A stretch of DNA of 64,000 nt. Source: an uncultured Treponema sp. Lineage in GTDB: Bacteria; Spirochaetota; Spirochaetia; Treponematales; Treponemataceae. Below, in pieces: positions 42,739-58,538 of this stretch (positions within the stretch are counted from its first letter, which is position 1; each line of letters opens with the position of its first letter). The notes beneath the pieces were generated by a model. That model worked only from the letters and a program-made list of their open reading frames with translations. It was not told the origin of the DNA and did no database searches. Location: the NCBI GenBank assembly GCA_949299755.1, contig CASGBA010000002.1, forward strand, positions 1 through 64,000, given 5' to 3'. A program made the position numbers and the translations under genes.

Positions 42739-44397
42739 ATGGATGAAAAAAAAATATTTATTATCGGGCACAGGAATCCGGACACAGATTCAATTGTCTC
42801 AGCGGCAGCCTATGCGGCATTTAAGCAAACCCAAGGAATAGAAAACTGCCGGGCTATCCGTGCCGGGAAGCCCACCCCACAGACAGAATATATTTTTGAG
42901 CGTTTTAAAGTACCGCTGCCGGAATTTGTACCGGATTTAATTCCCAAGGCGGAATATTATTACAAGCCAGGAACCCCGACCGTACTTGACTCCAGTTCCC
43001 TACGGGACGCAATGAAACTTCTGGAAGAAACGGGAAACCGGGTTCTTCCTGTAACAGACAAAAACGGGAAATACCATTCCCTTCTCCATTACAGCGCCTT
43101 CGCCCAGGAAGTGCTTAAGATGATGAATCCCAGGCAAAAAACCGTCATACGTACCAGTGCGGAACTTCTTTCACATGTACTGAATGCCCAGCCGGTGGTT
43201 CTGAAAAAAGAGAAGGAAATAAAAAAAAGCCCGGTAATTGTGGCGGCGGCCGAGGGGGAAAGTTTCCGGAAACATTTAAATGAGCACATTCCTGAAAATA
43301 CAATTGTAATTGTGGGGAACCGCACTGACATTCAAAAATACGTGATTGAATCAAAGGTTAGGATTTTAATTATCACCAGCGGGAATGTGCTTGACCGTGA
43401 ACTACGCACCATGGCAGAAGAAAACGGAGTGTCGGTTTTAATAAGCCCCTATGACACAGCTTCCACCGTTTTTCTCCTTATTTATTCAATGCCGGTTTCC
43501 TGCGTATCAAATTCATCGCTGGTTCCTGTAAATAAAACAGACCAGTTGAAAAAGGTGGCGCCGATGCTTGCCGTGGCACCCGGAAAGACCCTTCCCGTTG
43601 TGGATGAATCCGATAACGTGCTGGGGTTGATTTCCGAAAGCGATTTATTCAACGAACCGAACATTGACATAATAATGGTTGACCACAACGAAATGACACA
43701 GGCAGTGGAAGGGGCGGATCAATTCAGAATACTTGAAATCATAGACCACCACCGCCTGGGTAATTTAAGCACCAGGTATCCAATAACATTCATAAACAAA
43801 CCGGTTGGGGCAACCTGTACGATAATCACAGAATTATACCAGCAAAAACACACACCCATCAGAAACGAAATAGCTTCTATTCTTTTATGCGGTATCTTGG
43901 CAGACACCCTGGCCCTTCAGTCTGCCACAACAACACCGGAAGACAAAAGGGCTGCGGAATTCCTTGCTGACATAACAAACCTGGATATTGACACGCTAGG
44001 GAAAGAAGTCCTATCCGCAGCAAGCAATATTTCCGGGCGCACAGCGTTGGAGCTTATTTCACAGGACATGAAAGTTTATGATGACGGCGGATACTCTTTC
44101 AGCGTCAGTCAGATTGAAGTTGAAAATCCCGTGGAAATAACAAAACGTAAAAAAGAATTCATAGATATTCTGGATTCAGAACGGGTAAAAACAGGAAGAC
44201 TTTTCTGCTCACTTCTTGTAACGGACATAACAAGACTTTCCAGCCTGCTTTTAATAACAGCACCCCAGGATTTCCTTCAAACACTTACTTTGCAAAAACA
44301 GGAGGACAACATTTATTTCATGAAGGATGTGGTTTCCAGGAAAAAACAGCTTATGCCGATTCTTTCAGAAATAATCGAAAATTACGGCTCCAAATAG
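42739..44397 (+). CDS. Manganese-dependent inorganic pyrophosphatase with CBS-DRTGG-CBS insert (family II)
   Basis: The protein (552 residues from the chosen start) hydrolyses pyrophosphate to two phosphates. The DHH phosphoesterase motifs are IIGHRNPDTDSI near the N terminus, MVDHNE, and EIIDHHRLGN; the DHHA2 domain is at the C terminus. Between the first and second DHH motifs lies a roughly 240-residue regulatory insert with two CBS modules (PTVLDSSSLRDAMKLLEE region and LAVAPGKTLPVVDESDN region) around a DRTGG-like domain. CBS-PPases are known to be inhibited by AMP/ADP and activated by diadenosine polyphosphates. Longer in-frame starts exist upstream, but they lie before the -10 element. 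The HD-hydrolase gene follows 34 bases downstream. Confidence 0.92.
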   Translation: MDEKKIFIIGHRNPDTDSIVSAAAYAAFKQTQGIENCRAIRAGKPTPQTEYIFERFKVPLPEFVPDLIPKAEYYYKPGTPTVLDSSSLRDAMKLLEETGNRVLPVTDKNGKYHSLLHYSAFAQEVLKMMNPRQKTVIRTSAELLSHVLNAQPVVLKKEKEIKKSPVIVAAAEGESFRKHLNEHIPENTIVIVGNRTDIQKYVIESKVRILIITSGNVLDRELRTMAEENGVSVLISPYDTASTVFLLIYSMPVSCVSNSSLVPVNKTDQLKKVAPMLAVAPGKTLPVVDESDNVLGLISESDLFNEPNIDIIMVDHNEMTQAVEGADQFRILEIIDHHRLGNLSTRYPITFINKPVGATCTIITELYQQKHTPIRNEIASILLCGILADTLALQSATTTPEDKRAAEFLADITNLDIDTLGKEVLSAASNISGRTALELISQDMKVYDDGGYSFSVSQIEVENPVEITKRKKEFIDILDSERVKTGRLFCSLLVTDITRLSSLLLITAPQDFLQTLTLQKQEDNIYFMKDVVSRKKQLMPILSEIIENYGSK

Positions 44398-44431
44398 GAC
44401 TTTCAACAAATAAGATTTTGACGGGGAAATT

Positions 44432-45043
44432 ATGGAAGATATTTTCAAAAACATAGAAAACGAAAAATTGCGGCGCAGGCTTTTTTTTATTTCTGAAATT
44501 GATAAAATGAAGCAAATCATGAGAAAGACTTTGCTTATTGACGGCTCACGGCAGGAGAATGACGCGGAGCATTCATGGCACCTGGGGGTGATGGCATTCA
44601 TCCTTGAAGAATACACGAAGGAACCATTCTCCATGGAACGTGTCTTGAAAATGGTTCTTATACATGATCTGGTGGAAATATACGCAGGAGACACATTCGC
44701 TTTTGACAAAGAAGCAAATATGCAGAAAGAAGAAAGGGAAAAAGCCGCGGCGGATAAACTTTTTACCCTGCTGCCGGAAGGTCAGGGAGAAGAACTGCGC
44801 GCCCTGTGGGAAGAATTTGACAGGATGGACACACCGGATTCCAAATACGCCGCGGCCCTGGACAGGCTCCAGCCCTTTGTGCACAACCTCCTTACAGGAG
44901 GGCACACATGGGTTCTTGGAAACGTAAAACTTCAGCAAGTGTTGGAACGCTCCGGCCCAGTGATGGAAATACTTCCGGAACTAAAACCCTGGATGGAGGA
45001 GCAGATAAACCTTGCCGTAAAAAAGGGCTGGATTAAGGATTAA
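44432..45043 (+). CDS. HD-domain phosphohydrolase (YfbR/HDDC2-like)
   Basis: The 203-residue cytoplasmic protein has an HD metal-binding pattern: ENDAEHSWH with His at the first position, then LIHDLVEIYAGD with the HD pair, and AAALDRLQPFVHN with the distal Asp. This is the HD_3 type found in YfbR 5'-deoxynucleotidases and human HDDC2, which remove phosphate from deoxynucleoside monophosphates. The exact substrate cannot be stated. GGGG precedes the ATG. It follows the pyrophosphatase by 34 bases and converges on paaK. Confidence 0.87.
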   Translation: MEDIFKNIENEKLRRRLFFISEIDKMKQIMRKTLLIDGSRQENDAEHSWHLGVMAFILEEYTKEPFSMERVLKMVLIHDLVEIYAGDTFAFDKEANMQKEEREKAAADKLFTLLPEGQGEELRALWEEFDRMDTPDSKYAAALDRLQPFVHNLLTGGHTWVLGNVKLQQVLERSGPVMEILPELKPWMEEQINLAVKKGWIKD

Positions 45044-45072
45044 ACCCGCACTGGAAACCAGACCGTTACTTT

Positions 45073-46395
45073 TCAATCCTTGGGACGTCTGTCATCAACC
45101 CGCTTTGCCTTCCCTTCGGAAACAGGAAGGGAACCGGGCTGTTTTATTTCCACCACCGGATTGATGGTGATAAGGGCCGCCATCTCGCTTCTCAGCCGGT
45201 CGCGGAGAGCGTTTATCAAACGGCTGTCGTCAGCGAACATTTCAGGGGTGATTTCAACCTGCACTGTCAATTTATCGAGGACTCCGTTTTTATCAACAAT
45301 GATGAAATAATTCGCCCCAACACCTTTCGTCCTAAGCAATACTTCTTCAATTTGGCTCGGGAAAACATTCACACCGTTTATGATAAGCATATCATCGGTA
45401 CGTCCCGTAAGTCTTGCTATTTTTCTATGGGTGCGCCCGCATTCACAGGGTTCTGTGATAAAACGGGTTAAGTCCCTGGTCCTGTAGCGTATCAGAGGCA
45501 TGGCATCCCGGCACAAAATTGTTAGGACAAGTTCTCCTGTTTCTCCTTCAGGAACAGGCTCAAGCGTCTCAGGATCTATTATCTCGGCAATGTATCTGTC
45601 CTCCCAAATGTGCATTCCGTTCCGGAAAACACATTCAATGGCAGGGCCGGGGCCATTCATCTCGCTCATTCCGTAATTGTTGTATACTTCGATACCAAGG
45701 GTTCTTTCTATTTTACGGCGCAACTCTTCTGAATGGGGCTCCGCGCCGGCAATGGCTTTCCGTAACTTGAAATCGGAACGGAGGGAACCACTTTCTTCGA
45801 TTGCGGCATGAAGGTGGAGCAAATAACTCGGAGTGGCGTGCACTACGGTAGTGCCAAAGTCTTTCATGAACTTTATCTGGCGTATTGTATTACCGGAACT
45901 GGTGGGGACAACCATCATTCCGAGTTTTTCGGCACCATAATGGAGGCCGAGTCCTCCCGTAAATAGACCGTAGGTCATCATATTCTGGAGTATGTCCTGT
46001 CTGGAACATCCGGCGGCACGTAAACTGCGGGCCATTGTATCAGCCGCCATATCCAAATCCTTCTGTGTAAGATAAATCACAGTGGCGGCACCGGTTGTTC
46101 CGCTGGAAGCATGAAGCCTGACTACATCATCTTTCGGCACTGCCAGAAGACCGAATGGATAAGCGTCCCGTAAATCGTTCTTTGTTGTAAAAGGAAGCTT
46201 CCGTATATCATCAAGAGTAGATACAGTATCTTCGGTAATTCCCAGATCTTTGTATTTCTTACGGTAAAAATCAGTACGCAAGGCGGCCTTTATTTGATTT
46301 TTCAAACCGGCAAGCTGTATTCTTTCAATTTCCTCCCGGGGAGCCGTTTCAATTTTTTTATCCAAAAAAGGAATTTCCACATCTTTACCGAACAT
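45073..46395 (-). CDS. paaK: Phenylacetate-CoA ligase (PaaK family)
   Basis: The 440-residue ANL-superfamily enzyme forms aryl-CoA from an aryl acid, ATP and CoA. Signatures: the phosphate loop HASSGTTGAATVIYLT, NNYGMSEMNGPG, the hinge TGRTDDMLIINGVNVFP, and a C-terminal domain ending with the Lys-containing PVSEGKAKRV. Next to an indolepyruvate oxidoreductase subunit, its likely role is in aromatic amino acid fermentation (interconversion of arylacetyl-CoA and arylacetate with ATP gain or cost). It follows iorB by 14 bases. The Shine-Dalgarno is weak (AGGCG). Direction of the reaction in the cell cannot be read from sequence. Confidence 0.9.
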   Translation of the reverse strand: MFGKDVEIPFLDKKIETAPREEIERIQLAGLKNQIKAALRTDFYRKKYKDLGITEDTVSTLDDIRKLPFTTKNDLRDAYPFGLLAVPKDDVVRLHASSGTTGAATVIYLTQKDLDMAADTMARSLRAAGCSRQDILQNMMTYGLFTGGLGLHYGAEKLGMMVVPTSSGNTIRQIKFMKDFGTTVVHATPSYLLHLHAAIEESGSLRSDFKLRKAIAGAEPHSEELRRKIERTLGIEVYNNYGMSEMNGPGPAIECVFRNGMHIWEDRYIAEIIDPETLEPVPEGETGELVLTILCRDAMPLIRYRTRDLTRFITEPCECGRTHRKIARLTGRTDDMLIINGVNVFPSQIEEVLLRTKGVGANYFIIVDKNGVLDKLTVQVEITPEMFADDSRLINALRDRLRSEMAALITINPVVEIKQPGSLPVSEGKAKRVDDRRPKD

Positions 46396-46409
46396 ACGCA
46401 GCGCCTGTA

Positions 46410-46976
46410 TTAAGATTTTTCCCCGAGTTTCATAGCTTTCATATTCGCTTCCACAACCCGGGGATCTTTTTTGGCGAATATATCTTTCACGCTTTCCGCC
46501 ACAGCTTTTTCCGACACTGGAAGAGAGGAGACAGCCGCGCCAATCAAAGCCATATTCACAGCCTTTGCGTTACCGGCTTCCCTGGCTATGGCCTCCGCAT
46601 CCACAATACGGTGGGCAGGGAGAGAGCGGATTGAGGACAAAACTGTCTCTATCTCCGGATAATCAGGAATATTGACAAACGGAGTACTGGCCGTAACCAC
46701 AACACCTCCAGGCTTTAAAAACGAAAGATACCTTAACGCCTCCAGGGGTTCCATTGAAAGAATCATGTCAGCACAACCGGAGGGAATTAAATCCGAATAA
46801 ATCGGTCCGTCTGAAATACGCATATGGGCTTGAACCCCGCCACCACGCTGGCTCATACCGTGCACCTCAGACTGCCTGACTTCGAGACCGTCCGCCATGG
46901 CAGCCCTGGCAATAATAGTCGCAAGAGAAAGGACACCCTGTCCTCCGACACCTGCAAGAATAATATCATATGTCAT
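46410..46976 (-). CDS. iorB: Indolepyruvate ferredoxin oxidoreductase, beta subunit
   Basis: The 188-residue protein is the gamma-domain-type subunit of the enzyme that oxidatively decarboxylates aryl pyruvates (from Trp, Phe, Tyr) to aryl-CoA and reduced ferredoxin. Typical segments are AGVGGQGVLSLATII at the N terminus, SEVHGMSQRGGGVQAH, and MEPLEALRYLSFLKPGG. The thiamine-diphosphate/ferredoxin subunit IorA, usually adjacent, is missing: the upstream gene is pepF, whose stop overlaps the iorB start by 4 bases (ATGA), and paaK follows 14 bases downstream. IorA must be encoded elsewhere for this to work. The family could also be a 2-oxoacid oxidoreductase gamma subunit of other specificity. 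Confidence 0.88.
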   Translation of the reverse strand: MTYDIILAGVGGQGVLSLATIIARAAMADGLEVRQSEVHGMSQRGGGVQAHMRISDGPIYSDLIPSGCADMILSMEPLEALRYLSFLKPGGVVVTASTPFVNIPDYPEIETVLSSIRSLPAHRIVDAEAIAREAGNAKAVNMALIGAAVSSLPVSEKAVAESVKDIFAKKDPRVVEANMKAMKLGEKS

Positions 46977-48943
46977 TTTTGAATCCCCTTTGCATGGTCT
47001 TTGATTCTACCAGTTTTTACCATATTATGGAAGAGCTTTTCAAAAACGGCTATTTCATCCTTAAAAAACCTGGTCCCCTGTTTCCAGAAATCCGGCTCTT
47101 CAATATTAAAACCGGCGGAGGAAGCAATTTCAGCGGCTGAATTCCTTCCCGTATCCAACAGAAGTTTTTTATACACTTCCGAGAATTTACCGCCTTCATT
47201 TTTAAACCTTGAAAAAAGCGCAAATGAAAAAAGCTGCCCGAAAGCATATGGAAAATTGTAAAAGGCAAGGTCAGCTGAATAATAATGGCATTTGACAACC
47301 CACATATACGGGTGAAGGGCATTCTCATCCAAAGCACCACCATAAGCCTTTTTCTGGCAATCCGTCATAATCCGGCAAAAATCTCCGGAAACTAAAGAAC
47401 CTTTGCCGCATTCATCAAACACCGCCCGCTCAAAATAAAAGCGGGAAAGGATGTCGCATATAATCTGGCATCCGTCCTGGATATTCATTTCTATCAGAGT
47501 AAGTTTTTCTCCGTCCGGAACAGAATCAAGGTGGGAATTAAAAACCAGGGTTTCAGCAAAAATAGAAGCTGTTTCCGCCAAAGTCATTGGAAGTTCCTGT
47601 TCCCTGGCTGGAAGGTTTTTCATAATTTCAAAATGATAAGCATGACCCAACTCATGGGCAAGGGTCATAACGCTGTTAAATGTCCCGTCAAAGTTGCACA
47701 TAACGCGGGACTCCTTAACATAAGGGAAGGCGGTCATGTAAGCACCGCCTATTTTCCCTGGACGCATTTTTCCGTCAACCCAGCCGGATTTAAAAGCTTT
47801 TTCAGCGAAATCCGCCATGTCCTGCGAAAATGATGAGAAACATTCTATCACTTTCCGGCAAGCTTCATCCCAGCTGTACTCTTTTAAAGCACTGGTTCCA
47901 CTATGAATCGGGGCGAACAAGTCATAAAAAGCGCACTTACCCACACCGAGGATTTCCGCCTTCAAATTCAAATAACGGGCAAAATCCGGAACCACATCTT
48001 CCATGGCGGCCAACAAGGCGGACAAGGCTGTCCGGGAAACCCGTCCTTGCCAGGCAGATTTTTCCAGAGACCCGCATCCCGCAAGGCTGGCGGCTCCGGA
48101 TTTTACTCCTCCCCTGGTATATGCTTCGCCACTGTCCCCGGAGAAACCTGCCCATCCCCTGCGTTTATTCAAGGATGCGGATATACCTTTCACTGCATTC
48201 AGAGAAGCTGCCACAGGCAGTGAAATTGACCGGCAGGTTTCAAGTTCCAGCTTGAAGGCTTTTTCCCGGACTGCCCTGTCACCGGAATAAGCCAAAGCCC
48301 GCAATTCCACAAGGGTTTTCCGTTCCCCGGTTTCCGCATCCCAAACACATCCGGCGGTTCCAGTCAGTTGATCCTGCAAGCGGCCCCAGGCATCCGCATC
48401 GAAACGGGCAAGATCAGCCGCCAGATCTTCCTCCTCCGGTGACATCAGTTTGGCACGCCGGAATAAAAGCTCTTCAATATATTTTTTATAACCGGAAAAA
48501 GATTCATTCCGGAGACAAATATCCATCAGTGTTTTTTCACGGCGTTTTATCCTGTCAAGGAGTTTCACAAAGATTCCGTCATAAGGCCTGCGGATTTCTT
48601 CCGAACGGGATAAGGCGGCCAGAGCCTCGGGGGAATCCGTATTAACCGAATAGGAAGCGTAACAATAGGATTCGATTGTTTCCGCCAGAGACAGATATTC
48701 ATCATTTAAGGAAACAAAGGTTTCAAACCAGTTTATGGTTTCAGAAACAGAGTCATTGTTTTTTTCCGTGAACACACTATCCTCTTCAGGACAACAGGAG
48801 GAAAGGGCATCAAGTTTTTCCAGAAGATATGTCAATCTGCCGCAGGCAGAAACATATTCATTACTTTCAAAAGAAGGGAAAACCGAAGACAATTGCCATT
48901 CGGGTACAAGAACCGGCGTGCCGGTATTTTTCTCATCTGCCAT
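46973..48943 (-). CDS. pepF: Oligoendopeptidase F family metallopeptidase
   Basis: The protein (656 residues from the chosen start) cleaves short peptides in the cytoplasm. It has the M3 zinc-binding motif HELGH (in MTLAHELGHAYHF) with a downstream Glu in LAETASIFAETL, and the family C-terminal region. The ATG at 48943 is preferred to a TTG 12 codons earlier, whose N terminus would start MKKLLFCVTSCV; neither has a good ribosome-binding site. Compared with usual PepF proteins there is a Gly/Ser-rich insert of roughly 30 residues after LNKRRGW (around residues 260-290), including a lone GDSGEAYTRGG stretch. The stop overlaps the iorB start, so peptide and amino-acid breakdown genes are co-expressed. 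Confidence 0.9.
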   Translation of the reverse strand: MADEKNTGTPVLVPEWQLSSVFPSFESNEYVSACGRLTYLLEKLDALSSCCPEEDSVFTEKNNDSVSETINWFETFVSLNDEYLSLAETIESYCYASYSVNTDSPEALAALSRSEEIRRPYDGIFVKLLDRIKRREKTLMDICLRNESFSGYKKYIEELLFRRAKLMSPEEEDLAADLARFDADAWGRLQDQLTGTAGCVWDAETGERKTLVELRALAYSGDRAVREKAFKLELETCRSISLPVAASLNAVKGISASLNKRRGWAGFSGDSGEAYTRGGVKSGAASLAGCGSLEKSAWQGRVSRTALSALLAAMEDVVPDFARYLNLKAEILGVGKCAFYDLFAPIHSGTSALKEYSWDEACRKVIECFSSFSQDMADFAEKAFKSGWVDGKMRPGKIGGAYMTAFPYVKESRVMCNFDGTFNSVMTLAHELGHAYHFEIMKNLPAREQELPMTLAETASIFAETLVFNSHLDSVPDGEKLTLIEMNIQDGCQIICDILSRFYFERAVFDECGKGSLVSGDFCRIMTDCQKKAYGGALDENALHPYMWVVKCHYYSADLAFYNFPYAFGQLFSFALFSRFKNEGGKFSEVYKKLLLDTGRNSAAEIASSAGFNIEEPDFWKQGTRFFKDEIAVFEKLFHNMVKTGRIKDHAKGIQK

Positions 48944-49012
48944 AACACATGATGTAACACAAAATAGAAGCTTCTTCAAGACAGAATGGAAAAACGCCGG
49001 ACACGCCGTAAT

Positions 49013-50290
49013 TTATTTAAATTTCAAAATGGAGGAAATATCAGCCATGCGGCAACCGGGATTCAAGTCACAGGCCCGCATCAAAAAGTTCAATTTATCT
49101 ATCCTCTCTCCTGATCTGGGCGCACCGTTTTTTATAAAACCTACCTGCAAACCCACAGCCAAATCCATCACCACATCACCAACAACTCCACCGGAACGGC
49201 CGGAAGGTGTTGCAATCAATCCGTTTTCAACGGCGTATTCATATGTATACAAAGCTTCGGTGATGGTTCCAACCTGATTGGGTTTCAATATAAAACCGTC
49301 TATGGAATCTGCTTTATGGGCTCTCTCCAAACGTTCCATATTTGTTACAATAAAGTCATCACCGAGTATATTTGTCCTGTGTATGGCGGCATGGGCTTTC
49401 GCATATCCGTCCCAATCCTCCTCATCCAATAAATCCTCCACAAATACAAAGTTGAATTTTTCAGTCAACTCTTTCATGTAACCTATCAACTCATCAGAGG
49501 AAACACGCTTACCGTGAAGGAGATATGTTTTGGTTGAGGAATCGTACATTTCACTGGAAGCGCAGTCCAAAGCGTAGCCCATCTTTCCGGTATAACCGCA
49601 TCTGTCAACAGCCTCCGAAATAATTTCCAAAATTTCAGCGGGATCTTCAGATGGCGCCGCATAACCGTAAGAAGAGGCTGTCTGGGGCTTTTCACCGGTG
49701 CGTTCCTTTATAACTTTTTCCAAACATTTAAAAGTCAAAACCCCCATTTCAACCGCATGGTAAATATCATCCGCACCGTAGGGCATGATGATGAATTCAT
49801 TGAAAGGCTGCGTAAGGGTATCATATCTGCCGCCATTCACCACATTAAAGCTGGGAACAGGAACGGTTTTTACCGGCCCGGAAGCAAGGTAATTGTACAG
49901 GGGCATACGGTTTACTTCAGCTGCGGCACGCAGAGCTGCAATTGAAACTGAATAAACCGCATTACCGCCAAGACGGATTTTATCTTTGGTTCCGTCCAAA
50001 TCTATCATAATACCGTCGATTTCGGTTTGATCCGTAACTTCCTTTCCAATCAAAGCCGGAGCAATTATGTTATTGACATTGTCCACCGCCTTATGGACAC
50101 TCATACCCATATATTCGTTGGGGTCATTGTCACGCAAAACAAATGATTCAAATTTTCCGACAGATGAACCTGTAGGCGCACATCCCCGACCGAGGCAACC
50201 GTTGTCTGTCACCACATCAACCTCAACCATCGGACGGCATTTACAGTCTATTATTTGCCGTGCATGGACGGCCGAAATTTTCGCATTCAT
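49013..50290 (-). CDS. Enolase-superfamily protein, divergent enolase paralog
   Basis: This 425-residue protein is collinear with enolase but altered in the active site. Compared with E. coli enolase as I recall it, the metal ligands Asp242, Glu285 and Asp311 and the catalytic base Lys336 are kept, as are Arg365, Ser366 and Lys387. The second catalytic acid (E. coli Glu208 in GDEGG) is replaced in SSYGYAAP, His369 of SHRSGE is Gly364 in SGRSGG, and His158 is lost in NGGRYDT. It is therefore probably not the housekeeping enolase. It follows a glycerate 2-kinase gene by 11 bases, so its substrate may derive from 2-phosphoglycerate or a related phosphorylated acid. AGGAG precedes the ATG. Databases may call it phosphopyruvate hydratase. 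Confidence 0.8.
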   Translation of the reverse strand: MNAKISAVHARQIIDCKCRPMVEVDVVTDNGCLGRGCAPTGSSVGKFESFVLRDNDPNEYMGMSVHKAVDNVNNIIAPALIGKEVTDQTEIDGIMIDLDGTKDKIRLGGNAVYSVSIAALRAAAEVNRMPLYNYLASGPVKTVPVPSFNVVNGGRYDTLTQPFNEFIIMPYGADDIYHAVEMGVLTFKCLEKVIKERTGEKPQTASSYGYAAPSEDPAEILEIISEAVDRCGYTGKMGYALDCASSEMYDSSTKTYLLHGKRVSSDELIGYMKELTEKFNFVFVEDLLDEEDWDGYAKAHAAIHRTNILGDDFIVTNMERLERAHKADSIDGFILKPNQVGTITEALYTYEYAVENGLIATPSGRSGGVVGDVVMDLAVGLQVGFIKNGAPRSGERIDKLNFLMRACDLNPGCRMADISSILKFK

Positions 50291-50301
50291 ATTTTCTCCT
50301 G

Positions 50302-51708
50302 TTATTTTGTTCCCACATCCGGAATATATAATATATTAAAATCACACAAATTGGTACCTGTGTTTCCCGTAAAAACCGTATCCCCCATAGCGTTCAAAGC
50401 TTCATAACAGGCGTGTCCGCGCAAAGCCCCGTGGATGTCCACTCCTTTTTCTTTCGCGACAGCATAACTTGTGGAATCAGTAATTCCTCCGGCAACAGGT
50501 GTTGTACCGTCTGTTCCCTCTGAATCTATCGAAAGCATACAGGCTCCCTTTGTTTTTGCCGCAAGGAGTGCAAAGGAGGCAGTTAATTCCTGGGAAGGCC
50601 CGCCATGTCCTGTAATCTCTTTGTTATCAAGGATTTTTGTGGTAACTTCGCCGGAACTCAAAATAACACAGGGAGGCTTTATGGGATTTCCATAAGCCTG
50701 CACTTCCCTGGCAATTGAAGCAAAGAAAGAGCCTGCGTCCCTGCTTTCCCCTTCCAGGAAAGATGTAAGTATCATACAGTTGAGTCCCATCTCCTCCGCA
50801 ATCTCTTTGGCATAAATACAGGAATCAGGAAGAGTATTCAACAGGAAATAAGTGTTCTCGGGGAATTCCTTGGGAGTTTCCGCTTCAGGTCCTGCATTCA
50901 TCAAATAATCCACAACATTTTTCGGGAGCCTGTCAGCTACATTATAATCTTTAATAACCCTTCGGGCATCATCCAAAGTGGTTTTATCCGGACCTATGGG
51001 AGTACTGGCGTATTTCGCATAGGGAACGCCGATGTCACCGGTGGCAGGATTTCCAACCGCATCGCTTATACCGAACCCTATCATTTCCGCCCCTGTTTTC
51101 CTGATGCGCTTGGCAAGCATACCGCCATTCATTGCGGAAATATGACGGCGGACAGCATTCACTTCATAAATACCTGCTCCGGATTTCAGCATTACATCCG
51201 TAGTATCTATTTCTTCCTGGAGAGTGATTCCATCTATGGGACAGCTCATCAAGGCAGAGCTGCCGCCGGAAATTACACAAATAAAAAGATCTTCCGGACC
51301 GGCACTGTCAACAAGCTCAAGGATTTTGAGACAGGCTTTATATCCTTCTTCATTAGGAAGGGGATGGCCACCCACATAGACATCAGTGTGACGGAACACA
51401 TCCGTATCTTCAGGCACTTTAACAATAACAATTCCTTTCGTGAGGTAATCTCCCAAAACCTCATCTACAGCCATAGCCATATGGTTGCAGGCTTTACCCG
51501 CCCCCAGAAGATACACGTGTTTCTTTTTGGAAAGATCCCAGCTCTTTGTTCCAATATGAAGAACCGAGCCCTCCATATGCATTATACTTTTAATTCTTTC
51601 CTTTGAGTCAAGCCGGAGGAGGGTTTTTTCCGTGATGTCAAGAACCACCTTCCTCGATTCTATGTCACCGTGCGAAATCAAATCATCATAATTACGTATC
51701 TTTCTCAT
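50302..51708 (-). CDS. Glycerate 2-kinase (DUF4147/MOFRL family)
   Basis: The protein (468 residues from the chosen start) belongs to the GckA/TtuD-like kinase family that phosphorylates glycerate at C2 to give 2-phosphoglycerate. The N-terminal DUF4147 domain has LLGAGKACNHMA, VGGHPLPNEEG and ISGGSSALMSCP; the C-terminal MOFRL domain has LSSGEVTT, GGPSQELTASFAL and DSEGTDGTTPVAGG. The start at 51708 is chosen because GGAG lies 6 bases upstream; an upstream in-frame extension of 50 codons crosses the promoter. It is the first gene before the enolase-like gene, divergent from gdhA, with a palindrome-rich region between. The true substrate could be a glycerate analogue such as tartronate-derived acids. 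Confidence 0.9.
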   Translation of the reverse strand: MRKIRNYDDLISHGDIESRKVVLDITEKTLLRLDSKERIKSIMHMEGSVLHIGTKSWDLSKKKHVYLLGAGKACNHMAMAVDEVLGDYLTKGIVIVKVPEDTDVFRHTDVYVGGHPLPNEEGYKACLKILELVDSAGPEDLFICVISGGSSALMSCPIDGITLQEEIDTTDVMLKSGAGIYEVNAVRRHISAMNGGMLAKRIRKTGAEMIGFGISDAVGNPATGDIGVPYAKYASTPIGPDKTTLDDARRVIKDYNVADRLPKNVVDYLMNAGPEAETPKEFPENTYFLLNTLPDSCIYAKEIAEEMGLNCMILTSFLEGESRDAGSFFASIAREVQAYGNPIKPPCVILSSGEVTTKILDNKEITGHGGPSQELTASFALLAAKTKGACMLSIDSEGTDGTTPVAGGITDSTSYAVAKEKGVDIHGALRGHACYEALNAMGDTVFTGNTGTNLCDFNILYIPDVGTK

Positions 51709-51738
51709 AAAACTCTCCGGGTAAACCTGCGAAATTTT

Positions 51739-51794
51739 AATACAAAATGTATTATCTGATACACAGTGTAAAGCACTATGTATTTTTCTGTCAA
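51739..51794 (-). promoter_or_regulatory. Glycerate-kinase promoter with palindromic operators
   Basis: On the minus strand TTGACA (51789-51794) and TACACT (51765-51770) are 18 bases apart. A palindrome TACAC-A-GTGTA (51760-51770) covers the -10, and a perfect AATACA-AAA-TGTATT (51739-51753) lies just downstream of the expected start. TGTAT/ATACA half-sites recur in the whole gap to gdhA. Confidence 0.55.
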
Positions 51795-51819
51795 GAAAAA
51801 AAAATTTAAAAAATTCCTC

Positions 51820-51886
51820 TTGACAATCCTGAATTTGGGTGTATTTTGAATTATACATTTTGTTTTATTTAGTACATAAAACAAAA
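51820..51886 (+). promoter_or_regulatory. gdhA promoter and operators, with element shared with the TRAP operon
   Basis: TTGACA (51820-51825) and TATTTT (51842-51847) are 16 bases apart. TGTATTTTGAATTATACA (51840-51857) is an inverted repeat. TTTTGTTTTAT (51858-51868) and ATAAAACAAAA (51876-51886) form a perfect 11-bp inverted repeat over the leader. The 16 bases at 51860-51875 recur exactly at 58539-58554, and the -35 context TTGACA(A)TCCTGAATTT recurs at the same TRAP-operon promoter. Confidence 0.65.
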
Positions 51887-51898
51887 GGAGGACATTTT

Positions 51899-53161
51899 AT
51901 GCCGACTCAATATGATCCCTATCAGAATGTTTGCACCATTGTAAAAAATGCGGCAAAAATGCTGGGGTATCAGGAAAAAGACTATGAAGCCATTTTACAT
52001 CCGGAAAGAGAACTGAAAGTTTCTGTCCCTGTAATGATGGATGACGGGACTGTCAAAGTTTTTGAGGGATACAGGATACAGCATTCCACCTCCCGGGGAC
52101 CAGCGAAGGGGGGTATACGGTATCATCACAAGGTAGATTTGAATGAAGTACGGGCTCTTGCTGCCTGGATGACATTCAAATGTGCAGTGGTGAATATTCC
52201 CTACGGCGGCGGGAAAGGTGGTGTATTATGCAACCCGGCGGAAATGTCGGAAAATGAAATCAGAATGCTTACCCGCCGTTTTGTTGCCATGATTGCGCCC
52301 ATAATAGGCCCGGACACGGACATTCCGGCACCGGATGTTGGTACAAATCCGCAGGTTATGGGATGGATTATGGATACATTCAGTATGTTGAAAGGACACT
52401 GCACTCCTGGAGTTGTAACCGGGAAACCTTTGGAACTCGGTGGCGCTGTCGGAAGAAATGAAGCCACTGGGCGAGGTGTAACACTGTGTATTCTGTCCAT
52501 ACTGAAAAAACTCGGGCTTTCACCGAAGAATTCAACCGCAGTCATCCAAGGTATGGGAAATGTAGGAAGCACGGCGGCAAAACTTTGCAACCAGGAAGGG
52601 ATAAAGGTAATCGCTGTAAGCGATGTTTCAGGAGGACTGTATTCACCTGACGGACTCAATATTCCCGCCATCATAGAATACTTGACTGCAAAAAAGGGGA
52701 ATACATTGGAAAACCTTCACATGGAAGGAACAAAGCACATTACCAACGCAGAACTCCTGGAATTGCCCTGTGACATTCTGGTTCCTGCCGCATTGGAAAA
52801 CCAAATCAACTCGGGCAATGCGGAAAACATAAAGGCGGAGGTTATTGTAGAGGGTGCCAACGGGCCCACAACAGTGGAGGCAGATGCCATCCTTGGAAAA
52901 AAAGGAATAACCGTTGTGCCTGATATTATCGCAAATTCCGGCGGTGTAATAGTCTCGTATTTTGAATGGGTACAGAATATACAGTCGGTTTCTTGGAGTG
53001 AAGATTACATTGACAACCAGCTTCAGGAAATTCTCGGAAGGGCTTTTTCCGCGGTTTATTCTCTTGCGGAAGAAAAAGGCGTACCGTTGAGGACAGCGGC
53101 TTATCTCATCGCCGTCAAACGGGTTATAGACGCAAAAAAACTCAGAGGAATATGGCCGTAA
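51899..53161 (+). CDS. gdhA: Glutamate dehydrogenase (Glu/Leu/Phe/Val dehydrogenase family)
   Basis: The protein (420 residues from the chosen start) interconverts glutamate and 2-oxoglutarate plus ammonia with NAD(P). Family motifs: RGPAKGGIRYH, the catalytic-lysine region PYGGGKGGV, PAPDVGTNPQVMGW, and the dinucleotide fold IQGMGNVGSTAAK. The length fits hexameric 420-residue catabolic enzymes. The ATG at 51899 has AAAAGGAGG 7 bases upstream. By its promoter elements it belongs with the TRAP/cyclodeaminase operon, so here it probably works in amino-group transfer or nitrogen release from an imported compound. It is divergent from the glycerate kinase gene and convergent with the RpiR regulator gene. 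Confidence 0.93.
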   Translation: MPTQYDPYQNVCTIVKNAAKMLGYQEKDYEAILHPERELKVSVPVMMDDGTVKVFEGYRIQHSTSRGPAKGGIRYHHKVDLNEVRALAAWMTFKCAVVNIPYGGGKGGVLCNPAEMSENEIRMLTRRFVAMIAPIIGPDTDIPAPDVGTNPQVMGWIMDTFSMLKGHCTPGVVTGKPLELGGAVGRNEATGRGVTLCILSILKKLGLSPKNSTAVIQGMGNVGSTAAKLCNQEGIKVIAVSDVSGGLYSPDGLNIPAIIEYLTAKKGNTLENLHMEGTKHITNAELLELPCDILVPAALENQINSGNAENIKAEVIVEGANGPTTVEADAILGKKGITVVPDIIANSGGVIVSYFEWVQNIQSVSWSEDYIDNQLQEILGRAFSAVYSLAEEKGVPLRTAAYLIAVKRVIDAKKLRGIWP

Positions 53162-53202
53162 CAGTCAGCCGGTACATGCCCTGAAAAAAGTATACGGAAA
53201 AA

Positions 53203-53214
53203 CCGGCGCGCCGG
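53203..53214. terminator. Short palindrome between gdhA and the regulator gene
   Basis: CCGGCGCGCCGG is self-complementary and is flanked by AAAA/TTTT-type tracts on one side; it may act as a weak terminator for the minus-strand gene. Confidence 0.3.
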
Positions 53215-53228
53215 AAACACAGGAAAAA

Positions 53229-54077
53229 TCAAAGACCCAGGTAACACCCTTGATTGAGTATGGATTCCACCCGTGTAAGAACCCGGCGCGCCCTGCCCCG
53301 GTCGCTGTCAGCCACAGCTGCCGCAAGATAATTGGAAAGGCACAGTGTCGCCGCGAAGGAATTTTTATACGTAACACTCGAAATGGCACAGGGCAGGATT
53401 ATATCCCCGTAGGTTTTTACGGCGGAATAATTCAAGCTGGTTATCAGAATTACCTTAACCCCTTCCTTCCTCATCCAAGCTATGGCGGAAGCTGCGGATC
53501 TGGAATATCTCGGAAAAAGATAAGCGATGCAAACATCACCCTTTGTAGCGTCCGCTATTTCTTCCGGATAAATCATACCTGTAGACTGTACCAAACGGAC
53601 ATTATCTTTTATTTCCCCAATTCTAGAAGCAAGATAATGTGCCATGGCATAGGAGCTGCGCATACCCAAAATATAAATTTTATTGGATGAGGAAATGAAA
53701 TTCACCGCTGTCTCCAAATCATGTTCATTCTGGGCTGAAAGGGTTTCCTGTATATTCCGGATATCAAGAGCAAAGGATTTTGTAAGAAGCTGATTGGCAG
53801 GTATTTCACCACCTGAGCTTTCAAGTCTTTCAGGCAGTGCGGCCTTATTTTGGATGTTATTCTGAAAATCTTTTTGCATTTCAGAATAACCACTGTAATC
53901 AAGTATCCGTGCAAAACGGATTACAGTTGTAGTACTGACTCCTATGCGCTCCGAAAGTTCCTGAAGGGAACAAAAAGCGGCCACATCAGGATGGTCCATC
54001 AAATAACCTGCAACCATTTTTTGCGAATGAGTGAATTCGCTGTAACGTTCGTTTAACTTGGAAACAAAATCTATCAT
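53229..54077 (-). CDS. RpiR/MurR-family transcriptional regulator
   Basis: The protein (282 residues from the chosen start) has an N-terminal RpiR helix-turn-helix domain (about 1-75; FTHSQKMVAGYLMDHPD and GVSTTTVIRFARILDYSGY) and a C-terminal SIS sugar-phosphate-type sensor domain (about 120-260; IYILGMRSSYAMAHYLASR, KGDVCIAYLFPRYS, EGVKVILITS). Such regulators respond to phosphorylated sugars or acids. The ATG at 54077 is chosen because AAGGA lies about 7 bases upstream; an in-frame extension of 16 codons exists. A perfect palindrome lies 17-32 bases before the start. It is the natural candidate to control gdhA, the glycerate kinase/enolase pair and the TRAP operon around it. Confidence 0.9.
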   Translation of the reverse strand: MIDFVSKLNERYSEFTHSQKMVAGYLMDHPDVAAFCSLQELSERIGVSTTTVIRFARILDYSGYSEMQKDFQNNIQNKAALPERLESSGGEIPANQLLTKSFALDIRNIQETLSAQNEHDLETAVNFISSSNKIYILGMRSSYAMAHYLASRIGEIKDNVRLVQSTGMIYPEEIADATKGDVCIAYLFPRYSRSAASAIAWMRKEGVKVILITSLNYSAVKTYGDIILPCAISSVTYKNSFAATLCLSNYLAAAVADSDRGRARRVLTRVESILNQGCYLGL

Positions 54078-54093
54078 AACATCCTTGTTAAAT

Positions 54094-54109
54094 TTTCTAA
54101 TTTTAGAAA
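54094..54109. promoter_or_regulatory. Perfect palindrome before the RpiR gene
   Basis: TTTCTAATTTTAGAAA is a perfect 16-bp palindrome in the leader of the regulator gene, just downstream of a TATAAT-like -10 (minus strand). It is a likely autoregulatory site but differs from the 16-bp element shared by gdhA and the TRAP operon. Confidence 0.5.
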
Positions 54110-54205
54110 CATTATAAACTAACAATTCAAAATGATAAAAGTCATTCTTGCTTTTGTCAAGTTTTAAATACTTTATCAGAGGATTTATTTGCCGGTATTA
54201 CGGGA

Positions 54206-54261: not shown

Positions 54262-54843
54262 TTACTTAGGTTCATCAACCTTATTGAATTCTTCAGCTAC
54301 TTTTTCAACCTCGGATTCGATGGCAACAGTATAAGCGTCGTTTGTCACTCCAATTTCCTTTCCTTCCCTGTAATCCTTCAAATCTGAAAGAACATTGCGC
54401 AATTCATAAATCGAAATAAAGAAAAACGAAAACGGAATAGCCGCATAAAGCAACGGGTAAGGAAGTCCCGTAGCAGGGGTACTCCTTCCAATTCCATCTA
54501 CGACCTGACGTATACCGATGTAAACAACCATAACGGATACGACATACAGAAGAACCTGCGCGACAAGAGTGAAAAGCTGCTCCAGTTCTTTCGGCATCAT
54601 TTTCTTGAAAATTACAATACTGACATGCCCACGTTCCAAGGCAATGACGGACGTACTCATCAGGCAGAACCATACCAAAAGAAACTTCATGAATTCCTCA
54701 GACCATGTAAGAGAGCTATTCAAGACATACCGACAGAATACATGCGCCCAAGCCGTCACAAGCATTACAATGCCGACAGCAACTATCAGAACCTTCAGGA
54801 ACAATCTTATTCCCGGAATAATCCTGTCAAGAAATTTCAGCAT
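54262..54843 (-). CDS. TRAP transporter small permease (DctQ type)
   Basis: The protein (193 residues from the chosen start) has four hydrophobic membrane segments and the DctQ signature with SSLTWSEEFMKFLLVW and LERGHVSI. It pairs with the large permease DctM to move a substrate supplied by DctP, driven by an ion gradient. The C-terminal cytoplasmic tail of about 40 residues is charged. The ATG at 54843 has AAGGAG 8 bases upstream. It is the last gene of the operon, 19 bases after dctP, and a strong terminator follows. The gene order M-P-Q is unusual relative to the common P-Q-M. Confidence 0.9.
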   Translation of the reverse strand: MLKFLDRIIPGIRLFLKVLIVAVGIVMLVTAWAHVFCRYVLNSSLTWSEEFMKFLLVWFCLMSTSVIALERGHVSIVIFKKMMPKELEQLFTLVAQVLLYVVSVMVVYIGIRQVVDGIGRSTPATGLPYPLLYAAIPFSFFFISIYELRNVLSDLKDYREGKEIGVTNDAYTVAIESEVEKVAEEFNKVDEPK

Positions 54844-54862
54844 AAACTTCTCCTTAAAAATT

Positions 54863-55957
54863 TCAGTTGACACCCTTTGTCACATCCGACAGTACTTCTT
54901 CCATTCCGGCAAAGAAAGCGTCAACATACTCGCCGCCGATGGATTCCCGGACAGCCTCGGTAACCACGCCCTGGGTTGCCGCACGCATTTCTTCTTTTAC
55001 GCTGTCGTCCGGATCAAGAACTGTCATGCCTTTTTCCTGCAGAAGCTCTTTCAGCAAATCTTCACGCTCATAATTGCAGAAACGGCTGTAGTTCTGTCCT
55101 ATCAGGGCGCCTTTTATGATAATGGTCTGATATTCCGCAGGCAGGGAATTCCACCAGTCAAGGTTGGCTATGAGAGGCATCGTGTCATAGATGTGCCCCG
55201 TCAAAGTAAGGGCCTTTTGAACTTCATACATATTCAAGTCCCAGACATTGGCTATCGGATTCTCCTGGCCGTCAACAATTTTCTGTGAAAGAGCCATATA
55301 AAGTTCCGAGAAAGGAACGGGAGTAGGATTAGCACCTATGGTCTGGAAATTCAGGATATGCATCGGGGCAGCCATTGTCCTGAGCTTTACACCGGAAAAA
55401 TCGGAAATTGAAGCTATAGGTTTGGAAGCGGTTGTCGTGTGACGGAAGCCGTTCTCCATCCAAGCGAGACCTTTCATGTTGACTTCCTCAAGAGTAGCCA
55501 TCAGCTCCTCTCCTACATAGCTGTCCAACACCAACCAAGCCTCTTCGTAGCTTCCAAATAGGAAAGGAATATCCATGACCTGGAATTTATTCTGGTACAC
55601 GGTTATCGGGGCGAGAGAAGCGGTACACATCTCCAAAGTACCGGACTGAACCTGCTCAAGTGACATTTCCTCACTTCCAAGCTGACCGTTAGGATATATG
55701 TTCACTTCGATTTTTCCTAAAGACTGTTCCTCCACATATTTTTCCATCGCGAACAAACCGAGTGTCTGAGGATGATTGATGGAGTTACAGGCGCTTATTC
55801 TTATCGCGATATTTCCGAGTTCGGAAAGATCCCTGTGCGCCGTCACAACGGTACGCCGGGAATTCTTAACTAAACTGAAACACATGCAAAGAATCAACAA
55901 TCCCGTGGCAATCGCCATAACAACAACAAAAAAATTCGTTATCGCCTTTTTCATCAT
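54863..55957 (-). CDS. TRAP transporter solute receptor (DctP type)
   Basis: The 364-residue periplasmic binding protein has a long hydrophobic N-terminal segment (about 8-30) that may be an uncleaved anchor or signal peptide. Typical DctP features are IEVNIYPNGQLGSEEMSLEQVQSG shown by PNGQLGSEE, the conserved Arg in GVKLRTMAAP that pairs with a carboxylate, and SQKIVDGQENP. The conserved arginine indicates a carboxylic-acid-containing ligand. It lies between dctM and dctQ, 22 and 19 bases away. The ligand is probably an amino or hydroxy acid given the neighbouring cyclodeaminase-family enzyme and glutamate dehydrogenase, but this is inference. Confidence 0.92.
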   Translation of the reverse strand: MMKKAITNFFVVVMAIATGLLILCMCFSLVKNSRRTVVTAHRDLSELGNIAIRISACNSINHPQTLGLFAMEKYVEEQSLGKIEVNIYPNGQLGSEEMSLEQVQSGTLEMCTASLAPITVYQNKFQVMDIPFLFGSYEEAWLVLDSYVGEELMATLEEVNMKGLAWMENGFRHTTTASKPIASISDFSGVKLRTMAAPMHILNFQTIGANPTPVPFSELYMALSQKIVDGQENPIANVWDLNMYEVQKALTLTGHIYDTMPLIANLDWWNSLPAEYQTIIIKGALIGQNYSRFCNYEREDLLKELLQEKGMTVLDPDDSVKEEMRAATQGVVTEAVRESIGGEYVDAFFAGMEEVLSDVTKGVN

Positions 55958-55979
55958 TTGTTTTCTCCTAGTAAAAATT

Positions 55980-57254
55980 TTAGTATCCCATCAGTCTGGG
56001 CAGTGTCGTCACAAGAGGCGGAAAGAAAGTAAGAAGCAGCAGGATAATGATACACGCCGCTATATACGGAATCGCCTCTTTTACAGTTTCCTCTATAGTA
56101 ACACCAGCCGTCGGTGAAGTGACAAAAAGCGTGATTCCGAATGGAGGTGTCGCCAATCCGATGACAAGGTTCACGCAAATTATGATTCCGATATGCAGTG
56201 GATCGACACCGAGCTGCCAGGCTATAGGAGCGATTATGGGGGCAAGAATAACTATGGAAGCATAATCATCCATAAAGCATCCGCAAATCAACAGCACGAT
56301 ATTCACCAGGAGGAGGAAAAGCCAGACGGGCATTTGAGACATCGGTTCAATAAGGATACTGAGAACCCGTTCATTTGCGATGGCCCAGGCCATTACGCTT
56401 CCGGCACCGGCAAGAATCAAAACAAGTCCCGTTGTTGTCGTGGCTTCCATGAAAAGCTCCGGAATATCCTTCAACTTTATCGTCTTCTTTACAAAAAACG
56501 CTATTATAAAACTGTAAAGCACAGCGACAGCTGAAGCTTCGGTAATGGTAAATATACCGCTGAAAATTCCGCCGAGGATGATGACGGGAAGAATCAAAGC
56601 GGGAAGAGCCTTGATTGTGACGTCCCTCTTATGGGCCCATGTGCTTTTTCCGAATGAAGGATAATTACGCTTGACAGCGGTTCTGTGGGCTATCACCATT
56701 TCAGCGGCGGCTATCAAAATCGCCGGCACAACGGCGGCCAGGAACAAACCGGCGATTGACGTTCCGCCAACAGAAATGCTGTACATTATCATCAGAACTG
56801 ACGGAGGCATTATCGGCCCCAGCAACGCGGCGGAAGACATTGTTGCGGAAGCGAACGCGGGTGAGTAACCTTCTTTTTTCATCATAGGAATAAGGAATAC
56901 GCCAAGGGAAGCCGCGGATGCGACAGCGAGCCCAACGATAGAGCCCATGAGCAAAGACGCGCCTATTGTCACGATGGCGATTGCCCCTTTATAACGGCCG
57001 AAGAACGCATTCACAAAGTCAATCAGCAGCTGGAGCAAACCTCCCCGCAACATAAGCTGTCCTGTGATAACAAAAAAAGGTACAGCGAGGAAAGAAAAGC
57101 TGTTCATTCCCTCATACAACTTTGTTCCGACAATCGTAATGTCATAACCCATGACGAGCATATAAACGCTTGAGCTGACAATAAGATTGTAGGCAATCGG
57201 AACACCCATTATCATAAGGGCAAAAAAGCAGATAACCATTATGCCTAGTTCCAT
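55980..57254 (-). CDS. TRAP transporter large permease (DctM type)
   Basis: The 424-residue inner-membrane protein has about a dozen hydrophobic segments and the DctM pattern: VPFFVITGQLMLRGGL, a GSIVGLAVASAASLG segment, PPSVLMIMYSISVGG and GCFMDDYASIVILAPI. It forms the translocation channel with DctQ. AAGGAGG precedes the ATG. It is the second gene in the operon, after the ornithine-cyclodeaminase-family gene, with a hairpin-containing gap of 95 bases between them. Confidence 0.93.
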   Translation of the reverse strand: MELGIMVICFFALMIMGVPIAYNLIVSSSVYMLVMGYDITIVGTKLYEGMNSFSFLAVPFFVITGQLMLRGGLLQLLIDFVNAFFGRYKGAIAIVTIGASLLMGSIVGLAVASAASLGVFLIPMMKKEGYSPAFASATMSSAALLGPIMPPSVLMIMYSISVGGTSIAGLFLAAVVPAILIAAAEMVIAHRTAVKRNYPSFGKSTWAHKRDVTIKALPALILPVIILGGIFSGIFTITEASAVAVLYSFIIAFFVKKTIKLKDIPELFMEATTTTGLVLILAGAGSVMAWAIANERVLSILIEPMSQMPVWLFLLLVNIVLLICGCFMDDYASIVILAPIIAPIAWQLGVDPLHIGIIICVNLVIGLATPPFGITLFVTSPTAGVTIEETVKEAIPYIAACIIILLLLTFFPPLVTTLPRLMGY

Positions 57255-58477: not shown

Positions 58478-58538
58478 TGCTTCTCCTCCGTAAAAACAGC
58501 TTATCAATCTGTTTATGATATGACATATCTATAACAAA

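Follow-up and report, generated by a model that had tools for sequence, protein, structure and literature searches.

What reaction is catalysed by an enolase homologue that has kept its metal ligands and its catalytic base and has lost the general acid and two histidines? The question is raised by a gene in a 64,000-nucleotide stretch of DNA from an uncultured Treponema species, here called the window. The enolase-like protein (eL, 425 amino acids) is encoded at 49013-50290 on the minus strand, as indicated by reading-frame, profile, alignment and structure-model evidence. The plus-strand reading of the same interval is full of stops. The start codon, an ATG at 50290, is preceded by an AGGAG, and 11 bp separate it from the stop codon of a kinase gene.

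Fold and active site of the enolase-like protein

The Pfam domains Enolase_N and Enolase_C were both found in eL and cover almost its whole length. With TIGR01060, the NCBIfam equivalog model for enolase (cut-off 300), eL scored 378.7 bits; therefore, automatic annotation names eL phosphopyruvate hydratase. A second NCBIfam model that matched, PRK08350 (NF006223, enolase-related hypothetical protein), reached just 73 bits against a cut-off of 624, and the match was limited to residues 22-157. Among the best matches listed, solved enolases align to residues 5-408. An AlphaFold model of eL, calculated from a 31-row alignment, had a mean pLDDT of 93.6. Compared with known structures the predicted model resembled enolases, with TMq values of 0.90-0.94 in Foldseek (best 50 matches listed). 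In VIA the best 50 matches listed for the model were all enolases (Z 50.4-54.1), the closest to the predicted fold being the M. tuberculosis enzyme with Z 54.1 and an rmsd of 1.7 Å across 419 residues. The acid-sugar dehydratases of the MR/MLE group differ in this respect; by sequence and predicted structure eL is an enolase proper. Those dehydratases remove an alpha-proton beside a magnesium-bound carboxylate and then carry out a beta-elimination, as is proposed below for eL.

A scan of genome contigs yielded 37 loci, 36 of them with a usable protein (identities of 58-92%). The active site was examined in an alignment of 37 family members (the window protein and 36 relatives) with 29 canonical enolases from related genomes. 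Nine more distant relatives extended this to 46 family members, the window eL included, and 29 canonical sequences. Open reading frames of more than 440 amino acids, fused ones among them, were cut to the last 430 residues. A 66-residue fragment (L068) and a canonical fragment (L020) were dropped. L090 and L092, the same places as L050 and L052, were left out of the 46-row set, and L113, the same place as L053, was counted once; the eL of L095 was counted although in-frame stops occur near its end. The acid loop was re-examined with an HMM built from the 29 canonical rows. Canonical residues are given below in yeast numbering and codons are on the minus strand.

An earlier note, made from the letters of the window, had matched Asp242, Glu285, Asp311 and Lys336 to the metal ligands and the base of enolase. 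Alignment and canonical HMM agreed. The Mg(I) ligands Asp246, Glu295 and Asp320 correspond to Asp242 (49565-49567), Glu285 (49436-49438) and Asp311 (49358-49360), the catalytic base Lys345 to Lys336 (49283-49285), and each was kept in 46 of 46 family members. Just as invariant were E165 (Glu168), R365 (Arg374) and K387 (Lys396). S43, equivalent to the Mg(II)-binding Ser39, was kept in 45 members and is a Thr in one.

The note had further claimed that the acid of GDEGG and the histidines of SHRSGE and NGGxHAD are lost. All three are replaced family-wide, as judged by alignment and HMM. The DEGG motif reads SSYG in the window eL and mostly [PGR]SYG across the family. The acid loop has a one-residue insertion; therefore, the general acid Glu211 falls on Ser207 or Tyr208 (49667-49672). 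The residue aligned with Glu211 is Ser in 42, Tyr in three and Ala in one of the 46 members, and the following residue is Tyr in 41. An acidic residue at this position, Glu208 in the numbering of the note, was sought in all 46 sequences and not found; none of them has Asp or Glu between alignment columns 204 and 212. At column 203, Asp or Glu is present in 13 of 46. Relocation of the acid within the loop was rejected on these grounds; the conserved E215 and D216 sit further on. At the position of His159 (Tyr156 in the window, 49823-49825) there is Tyr in 35 and Asn in 11 members, i.e. NGGxH became NGGxY or NGGxN. His373 is lost to Gly364, next to the retained Arg365 (49196-49201), with Gly in 43, Gln in two and Ser in one of the 46. 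SHRSGE reads SGR[SA]GG in nearly all members, and its Glu377 is Gly in every one. Gln167 is Asn in 42 and is retained in four. Arg19 is a new residue in eL. In the family alignment, neither Lys nor Arg occurs among the replacements of the known C3-side residues. Half-site retention is thus real and common to all 46 members. The rebuilt active site is nearly uniform across the family, and the changes exceed chance.

The residues lost in eL presumably lie mostly near C3 of the substrate, away from the metal and carboxylate side. In enolase, Lys345 takes the C2 proton, Ser39 binds Mg(II) and Glu211 assists the departure of hydroxide (PMC4450660). In M. tuberculosis enolase, the mutant E204A, equivalent to Glu211, is reported as non-functional when assayed from PEP to 2-phosphoglycerate, and a Ser42 mutant retained about 5% in the same assay (PMC10619443). 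Taken together, canonical enolase (TIGR01060; EC 4.2.1.11) and eL have in common the fold, both domains, the Mg(I) ligands, the Mg(II) serine, the base lysine, the arginine and the second lysine, at 33-41% identity. Unlike canonical enolase, eL is without Glu211, His159, His373, Gln167 and Glu377, forms its own clade, adjoins or is fused with a kinase, and in 15 of 17 other hosts is present beside a canonical enzyme.

The kinase partner and the surrounding genes

The partner of eL is a class II glycerate 2-kinase homologue of 468 amino acids with DUF4147 and MOFRL domains (50302-51708, minus strand; Pfam and alignment). Its open reading frame opens at 51858, and the copy of a congener begins at the position matching 51708. 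The kinase adjoins eL in all 36 usable loci of the first set. In nine of these loci (L051-L058, L066) both are fused in one open reading frame, kinase first; seven fusions are full-length (895-931 amino acids) and two are cut by contig ends. The single protein of L053 carries DUF4147, MOFRL, Enolase_N and Enolase_C. A second set of nine stretches (L072, L089-L096; two are first-set places) has the kinase in all, with exceptions in layout: it is truncated in L091 and lies nearby on the other strand in L093 and L094. The earlier proposal that the substrate of eL may derive from the kinase product is well supported. Pairwise distances of kinase and eL were correlated (r 0.81, 34 pairs, none of 2000 permutations as high). 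This is supportive only, because it is expected of genes that travel together or of a shared descent of neighbours.

Motifs common to 1x3l and 2b8n, two solved members of its family, are retained in the kinase. Between ISD.VG and PD.TT it has an eight-residue insertion, with ASTPIGPD where 1x3l and 2b8n have ASGP. TP and GPD are invariant in 34 kinase rows, and TP.GPD stands where SGPT..D is usual. Curated cut-offs for glycerate 2-kinase were missed by a wide margin (181.9 against 550 bits in NF041176, 138.8 against 670 in NF040791). Because of its position in the alignment and its invariant residues, this insertion suggests that the substrate side of the kinase is changed as well; kinase and eL thus both seem altered on the substrate side. 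As the insertion is family-specific and precedes the PD.TT motif, 2-phosphoglycerate as the substrate is not well supported. A class II glycerate 2-kinase of the same family acts together with pyruvate kinase in the glycerate catabolism of T. tenax and Pseudomonas, and in some bacteria its gene is next to those of PEP-using enzymes (PMC2063504). There, 2-phosphoglycerate continues via the common enolase; the words 'fusion' and 'fused' are absent from that paper (PMC2063504). In contrast to that route, kinase and eL here both carry family-specific changes.

Divergent from the kinase is a glutamate dehydrogenase (GDH, 51839-53161, plus strand; family and structure search). The following genes are on the minus strand. 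An RpiR-type regulator (53229-54125) was named from its sequence by eye. A TRAP transporter comprises the small subunit DctQ (54262-54873) and the large subunit DctM (55980-57254), both assigned by position and sequence, and the solute-binding protein DctP (54863-55957), with 4p47, 4p9k/4pak, 4pdh and 4pdd as nearest solved relatives. A dehydrogenase of the ornithine cyclodeaminase/mu-crystallin family (OCD, 57350-58507) shares 80% identity with the L033 copy, and the latter scores over the PRK06199 cut-off. Neighbours were counted by clustering across the 37 first-set loci, many of which are cut by contig ends. OCD was found at 26 loci, dctP at 16, dctM and dctQ at 15 each, GDH at 13, RpiR at 12 and GntR at 11; rarer were LarA-like genes (four), D-2-hydroxyacid dehydrogenases (three) and M20 hydrolases (three). 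In G061 and G065, OCD lies at a greater distance, and G070 has it on a separate contig; a search in G348, G622 and G518 returned only distant relatives in the first two and none in G518. Three of the 13 GDH neighbours are of a second type, about 32% identical. A GDH of unusual specificity was considered and rejected: the protein resembles ordinary GDHs (21 solved ones at E <= 1e-100), with scores below the curated NCBIfam cut-offs. LarA-like genes, i.e. of 2-hydroxy-acid racemase type, are present in L044, L053, L054 and L062 and in L109, a wider stretch around L036. Both these and the D-2-hydroxyacid dehydrogenase homologues score below curated cut-offs.

Other transporters at the family loci were of the GPH, NCS1, DUF3100 and Dpp-like types by family search and, by eye only, of the amino-acid ABC, APC, GltS-like and TctABC-like types; an NCBIfam search with the TctA-like protein gave no match. 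The neighbouring transporters are so varied (amino-acid, NCS1, GPH, Dpp- and Tct-like) that they do not single out one upstream substrate. The DctP of the window has R, R, N, F and E at Arg152, Arg173, Asn213, the aromatic position 196 and the acidic position 76 in 4P47 numbering. Such positions contact the carboxylate and, typically, a hydroxyl, and 4P47-type relatives hold pantoate, erythronate, sugar acids or orotate, many of these crystal ligands having co-purified (PMC11668362). IseP, which binds the sulfonate isethionate, keeps the same residues (PMC11668362); therefore, they do not fix the ligand.

Altogether, OCD and GDH would suit amino-acid substrates, and TRAP and LarA would suit hydroxy acids. 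With its transporter, regulators and amino-acid dehydrogenase the cluster looks catabolic. It looks like a pathway that degrades a hydroxy acid, sometimes derived from an amino acid, and would end in PEP or a similar enol phosphate. In L042, one locus of 37, eL is followed at a distance of 13 bp by a pyruvate kinase gene that is truncated where the contig stops; this hints at PEP as the product.

Two side observations concern these loci. First, the window stretch 54358-56278 and positions 1-1921 of the congener locus L032 (dctQ, dctP and the beginning of the part of dctM that was compared) are 99.7% identical over 1921 bp of DNA. On the enolase side (window 44001-54167) identity to L032 is 78-79% in a comparison that spans the extent of L032. 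A recent exchange or sweep of the transporter genes probably explains the 99.7% stretch, to judge by the DNA comparison. Second, a very large protein follows the second-type GDH (L036:8996-13272, L064:8854-13272, L043:8656-13272, L109:8018-12841). It is complete in L109 with 1607 amino acids, and HD and cytidylyltransferase-like domains were recognised in the copy of L036.

Distribution of the family and the missing enolase

By record title, the family loci belong to Treponema, Lachnospiraceae, Oscillospiraceae/Oscillibacter, Synergistaceae, Sporolactobacillus and Planctomycetota, and several are from gut samples. L033 lies in genome G059; in a sample of the bacterial family to which G059 belongs, an eL member was found at E <= 1e-90 in 10 of 397 genomes, and the distribution is therefore sporadic. 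A maximum-likelihood tree of 76 proteins, calculated without L073, placed the 46 eL members on one side of a 100/100 branch. The window eL and the congener's copy nest among Lachnospiraceae copies (98/91), which suggests that the treponemes obtained eL by horizontal transfer. The distant systems L072 and L096 have long branches, which leaves their exact position unsure; in the case of the L072 pair, its long branch moreover joins the long one of the canonical group. A recent duplicate of the enolase of the organism's own bacterial family was ruled out by the separate 100/100 clade and by the place of the window copy among those of Lachnospiraceae. Between the window eL and the congener's (L032) dN was 0.055 and dS about 2, i.e. 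near saturation, which indicates strongly purifying selection on eL. A decayed pseudogene was ruled out by these values together with the conserved site in 46 members. Within the reach of our literature search no description of this enolase-kinase module was found.

Several enolase homologues lie at the periphery of this family. L073 (7306-8577, G062), 30% identical to eL, lacks D246 and D320 among the metal ligands and also the base lysine; it is apparently an enolase pseudoenzyme, and no kinase of the eL-partner type adjoins. The distant kinase systems L096 (7987-10571) and L072 (6432-9014) have two tandem enolase-like genes each and a separate gene of MR/MLE dehydratase type nearby; perhaps the enzymes are heteromeric. 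In Planctomycetota, L074 (179-1504, G072) encodes an enolase paralogue of 304 bits with an intact acid loop, in which SARSGE replaces SHRSGE.

The earlier note had also asked for a canonical eno elsewhere in the genome and had named its absence, in combination with normal enolase activity, as a result that would speak against a different reaction. There is none: in this genome, which is 99.2% complete, eL is the only PF00113 match, and a canonical enolase of the bacterial family used as query finds only eL. The same holds for PF00113 in the congener (G002). The window genome encodes phosphoglycerate kinase (PGK), iPGM, pyruvate kinase and PPDK. In the same bacterial family, PF00113 matched in 161 of 274 genomes. 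When the set is restricted to a completeness of 90% or more and a contamination of 5% or less, a match is present in 92 of 128 genomes and absent from 36, the single-contig genome G112 included. Six of the enolase-less genomes were checked; PGK and iPGM are present in all, pyruvate kinase in three, and no match to eL or enolase was found in any of the six. Since relatives without eL lack enolase as well, the loss is independent of eL. Outside this genome, 15 of 17 other hosts carry a canonical enolase (at least 414 bits) besides eL; the two without one are the congener and a Synergistaceae assembly of small size (1.6 Mb). Within the reach of our literature search nothing was found on enolase loss in treponemes. 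With 36 of 128 family genomes devoid of enolase and 15 of 17 other hosts keeping both proteins, the absent eno does not settle the role of eL.

These data bear on the most obvious alternative, that eL is a working 2-phosphoglycerate enolase, supplied by the kinase and/or iPGM, in which Tyr208 or Ser207 stands in for Glu211 and which replaces the canonical enzyme in this spirochaete. With ordinary enolase activity eL would close a gap, because no other enolase is found in this genome or in the congener while PGK, iPGM and pyruvate kinase are present. The TIGR01060 score above cut-off and the pyruvate kinase gene in L042 fit as well. However, the E204A enzyme of M. tuberculosis is reported as non-functional (PMC10619443), and most other hosts retain a canonical enolase. 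Both eL and enolase are missing from six family genomes that encode PGK and iPGM, so the gap needs no eL. PPDK (1306.7 bits in G000, over cut-off) could make PEP from pyruvate, and the fusion with a kinase points to a private substrate. We therefore consider a replacement enolase unlikely.

A candidate reaction and its alternatives

Because eL is tied to, and sometimes fused with, a hydroxy-acid kinase, its substrate is probably other than 2-phosphoglycerate. The earlier note had deduced a different reaction from the half-site. That deduction stands in so far as the half-site is common to the whole family and the kinase is strongly linked to eL; the lack of a canonical eno in the genome speaks against it. 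The most likely reading, to which we give about even chances, is that kinase and eL form a two-enzyme kinase-lyase module in which a 2-hydroxy acid is converted to a 2-phospho acid and this to an enol phosphate of the PEP type, the group at C3 being something other than a plain hydroxyl. The MOFRL kinase would phosphorylate a 2-hydroxy acid, either taken up by the cell or formed inside it, at its 2-hydroxyl. The 2-phospho acid would be bound by eL via Mg(I) (D242, E285, D311), Mg(II) (S43) and R365. K336 would take the C2 proton, as in enolase, and the resulting intermediate would be held by magnesium. The C3 group would then leave without Glu211. We infer that it is not a plain hydroxide expelled by that residue; it may be a non-hydroxide leaving group, e.g. 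an amine as from 2-phospho-isoserine. Alternatively, a C3-substituted hydroxyl may leave with the help of the conserved Tyr208/Ser207, i.e. Tyr208 or Ser207 might act as an acid. The product would be PEP or a substituted enol phosphate.

For such a module speak the adjacency and fusion with the kinase, the 100/100 clade, the invariant ligands with K336, R365, K387 and E165, the loop devoid of an acid and the loss of function in E204A. Against it stand the gap that ordinary enolase activity would fill and TIGR01060, which calls eL an enolase. More tentatively, and as a narrower claim, the enolase subgroup proper may have acquired a second reaction, that of a kinase-coupled, magnesium-dependent lyase which forms PEP from a 2-phospho-3-substituted acid by expelling a non-water group, e.g. 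an amine.

The same residues permit other readings. The enzyme could act on the antipode, L-2-phosphoglycerate from L-glycerate or another one, with the Glu168 homologue as base and the lysine as acid, again forming PEP. LarA-like racemase genes (L044, L053, L054, L062, L109) would suit this, and so would the losses if, as we assume, they lie mostly near C3 and not on the metal and carboxylate side. However, the neighbouring 2-hydroxyacid dehydrogenases resemble D-specific enzymes; the antipode is quite improbable. Or eL could be a racemase or epimerase that abstracts the proton without elimination and turns one 2-phospho acid into its epimer. The loss of Glu211 removes the elimination step, and base and metals remain; yet a second base is not obviously introduced, and a canonical enolase, absent here, would then be needed. 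This appears less probable again.

A lyase for 2-phospho-3-sulfolactate would release sulfite, the reverse of the phosphosulfolactate synthase reaction of methanogens, and sulfite leaves without needing an acid. OCD and 2-hydroxyacid dehydrogenase could conceivably turn cysteate into sulfolactate, a NIR_SIR domain is encoded in 11 of 16 hosts, and the TRAP transporter has a DctP whose checked residues also occur in the isethionate-binding IseP (PMC11668362). The possibility is weakened by the window genome and the congener, from which, as from three more hosts (together five of 16), the NIR_SIR domain is absent. Among the neighbours no sulfite exporter was recognised by eye, and there is no new Lys or Arg among the C3-side replacements, though Arg19 is new. 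Sulfite release is thus very unlikely. Least credible is a catalytically dead enolase that serves the kinase as partner or scaffold: fusion would suit it and L073 demonstrates that enolase homologues without metal ligands exist, but metal ligands, base, arginine and lysine of eL are invariant in 46 of 46 members.

Enolase is usually regarded as a subgroup with one function. Here, an NCBIfam equivalog names a protein phosphopyruvate hydratase though the assigned general acid is missing. The nearly uniform rebuilt site together with a fused kinase would make eL a clean case of new chemistry arising from a core glycolytic enzyme. The kinase limits the substrate to acids which it can phosphorylate; therefore, a small substrate library is testable. 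If the group that eL expels is indeed not water, gut bacteria would have a catabolic route, hitherto undescribed, that leads straight to PEP.
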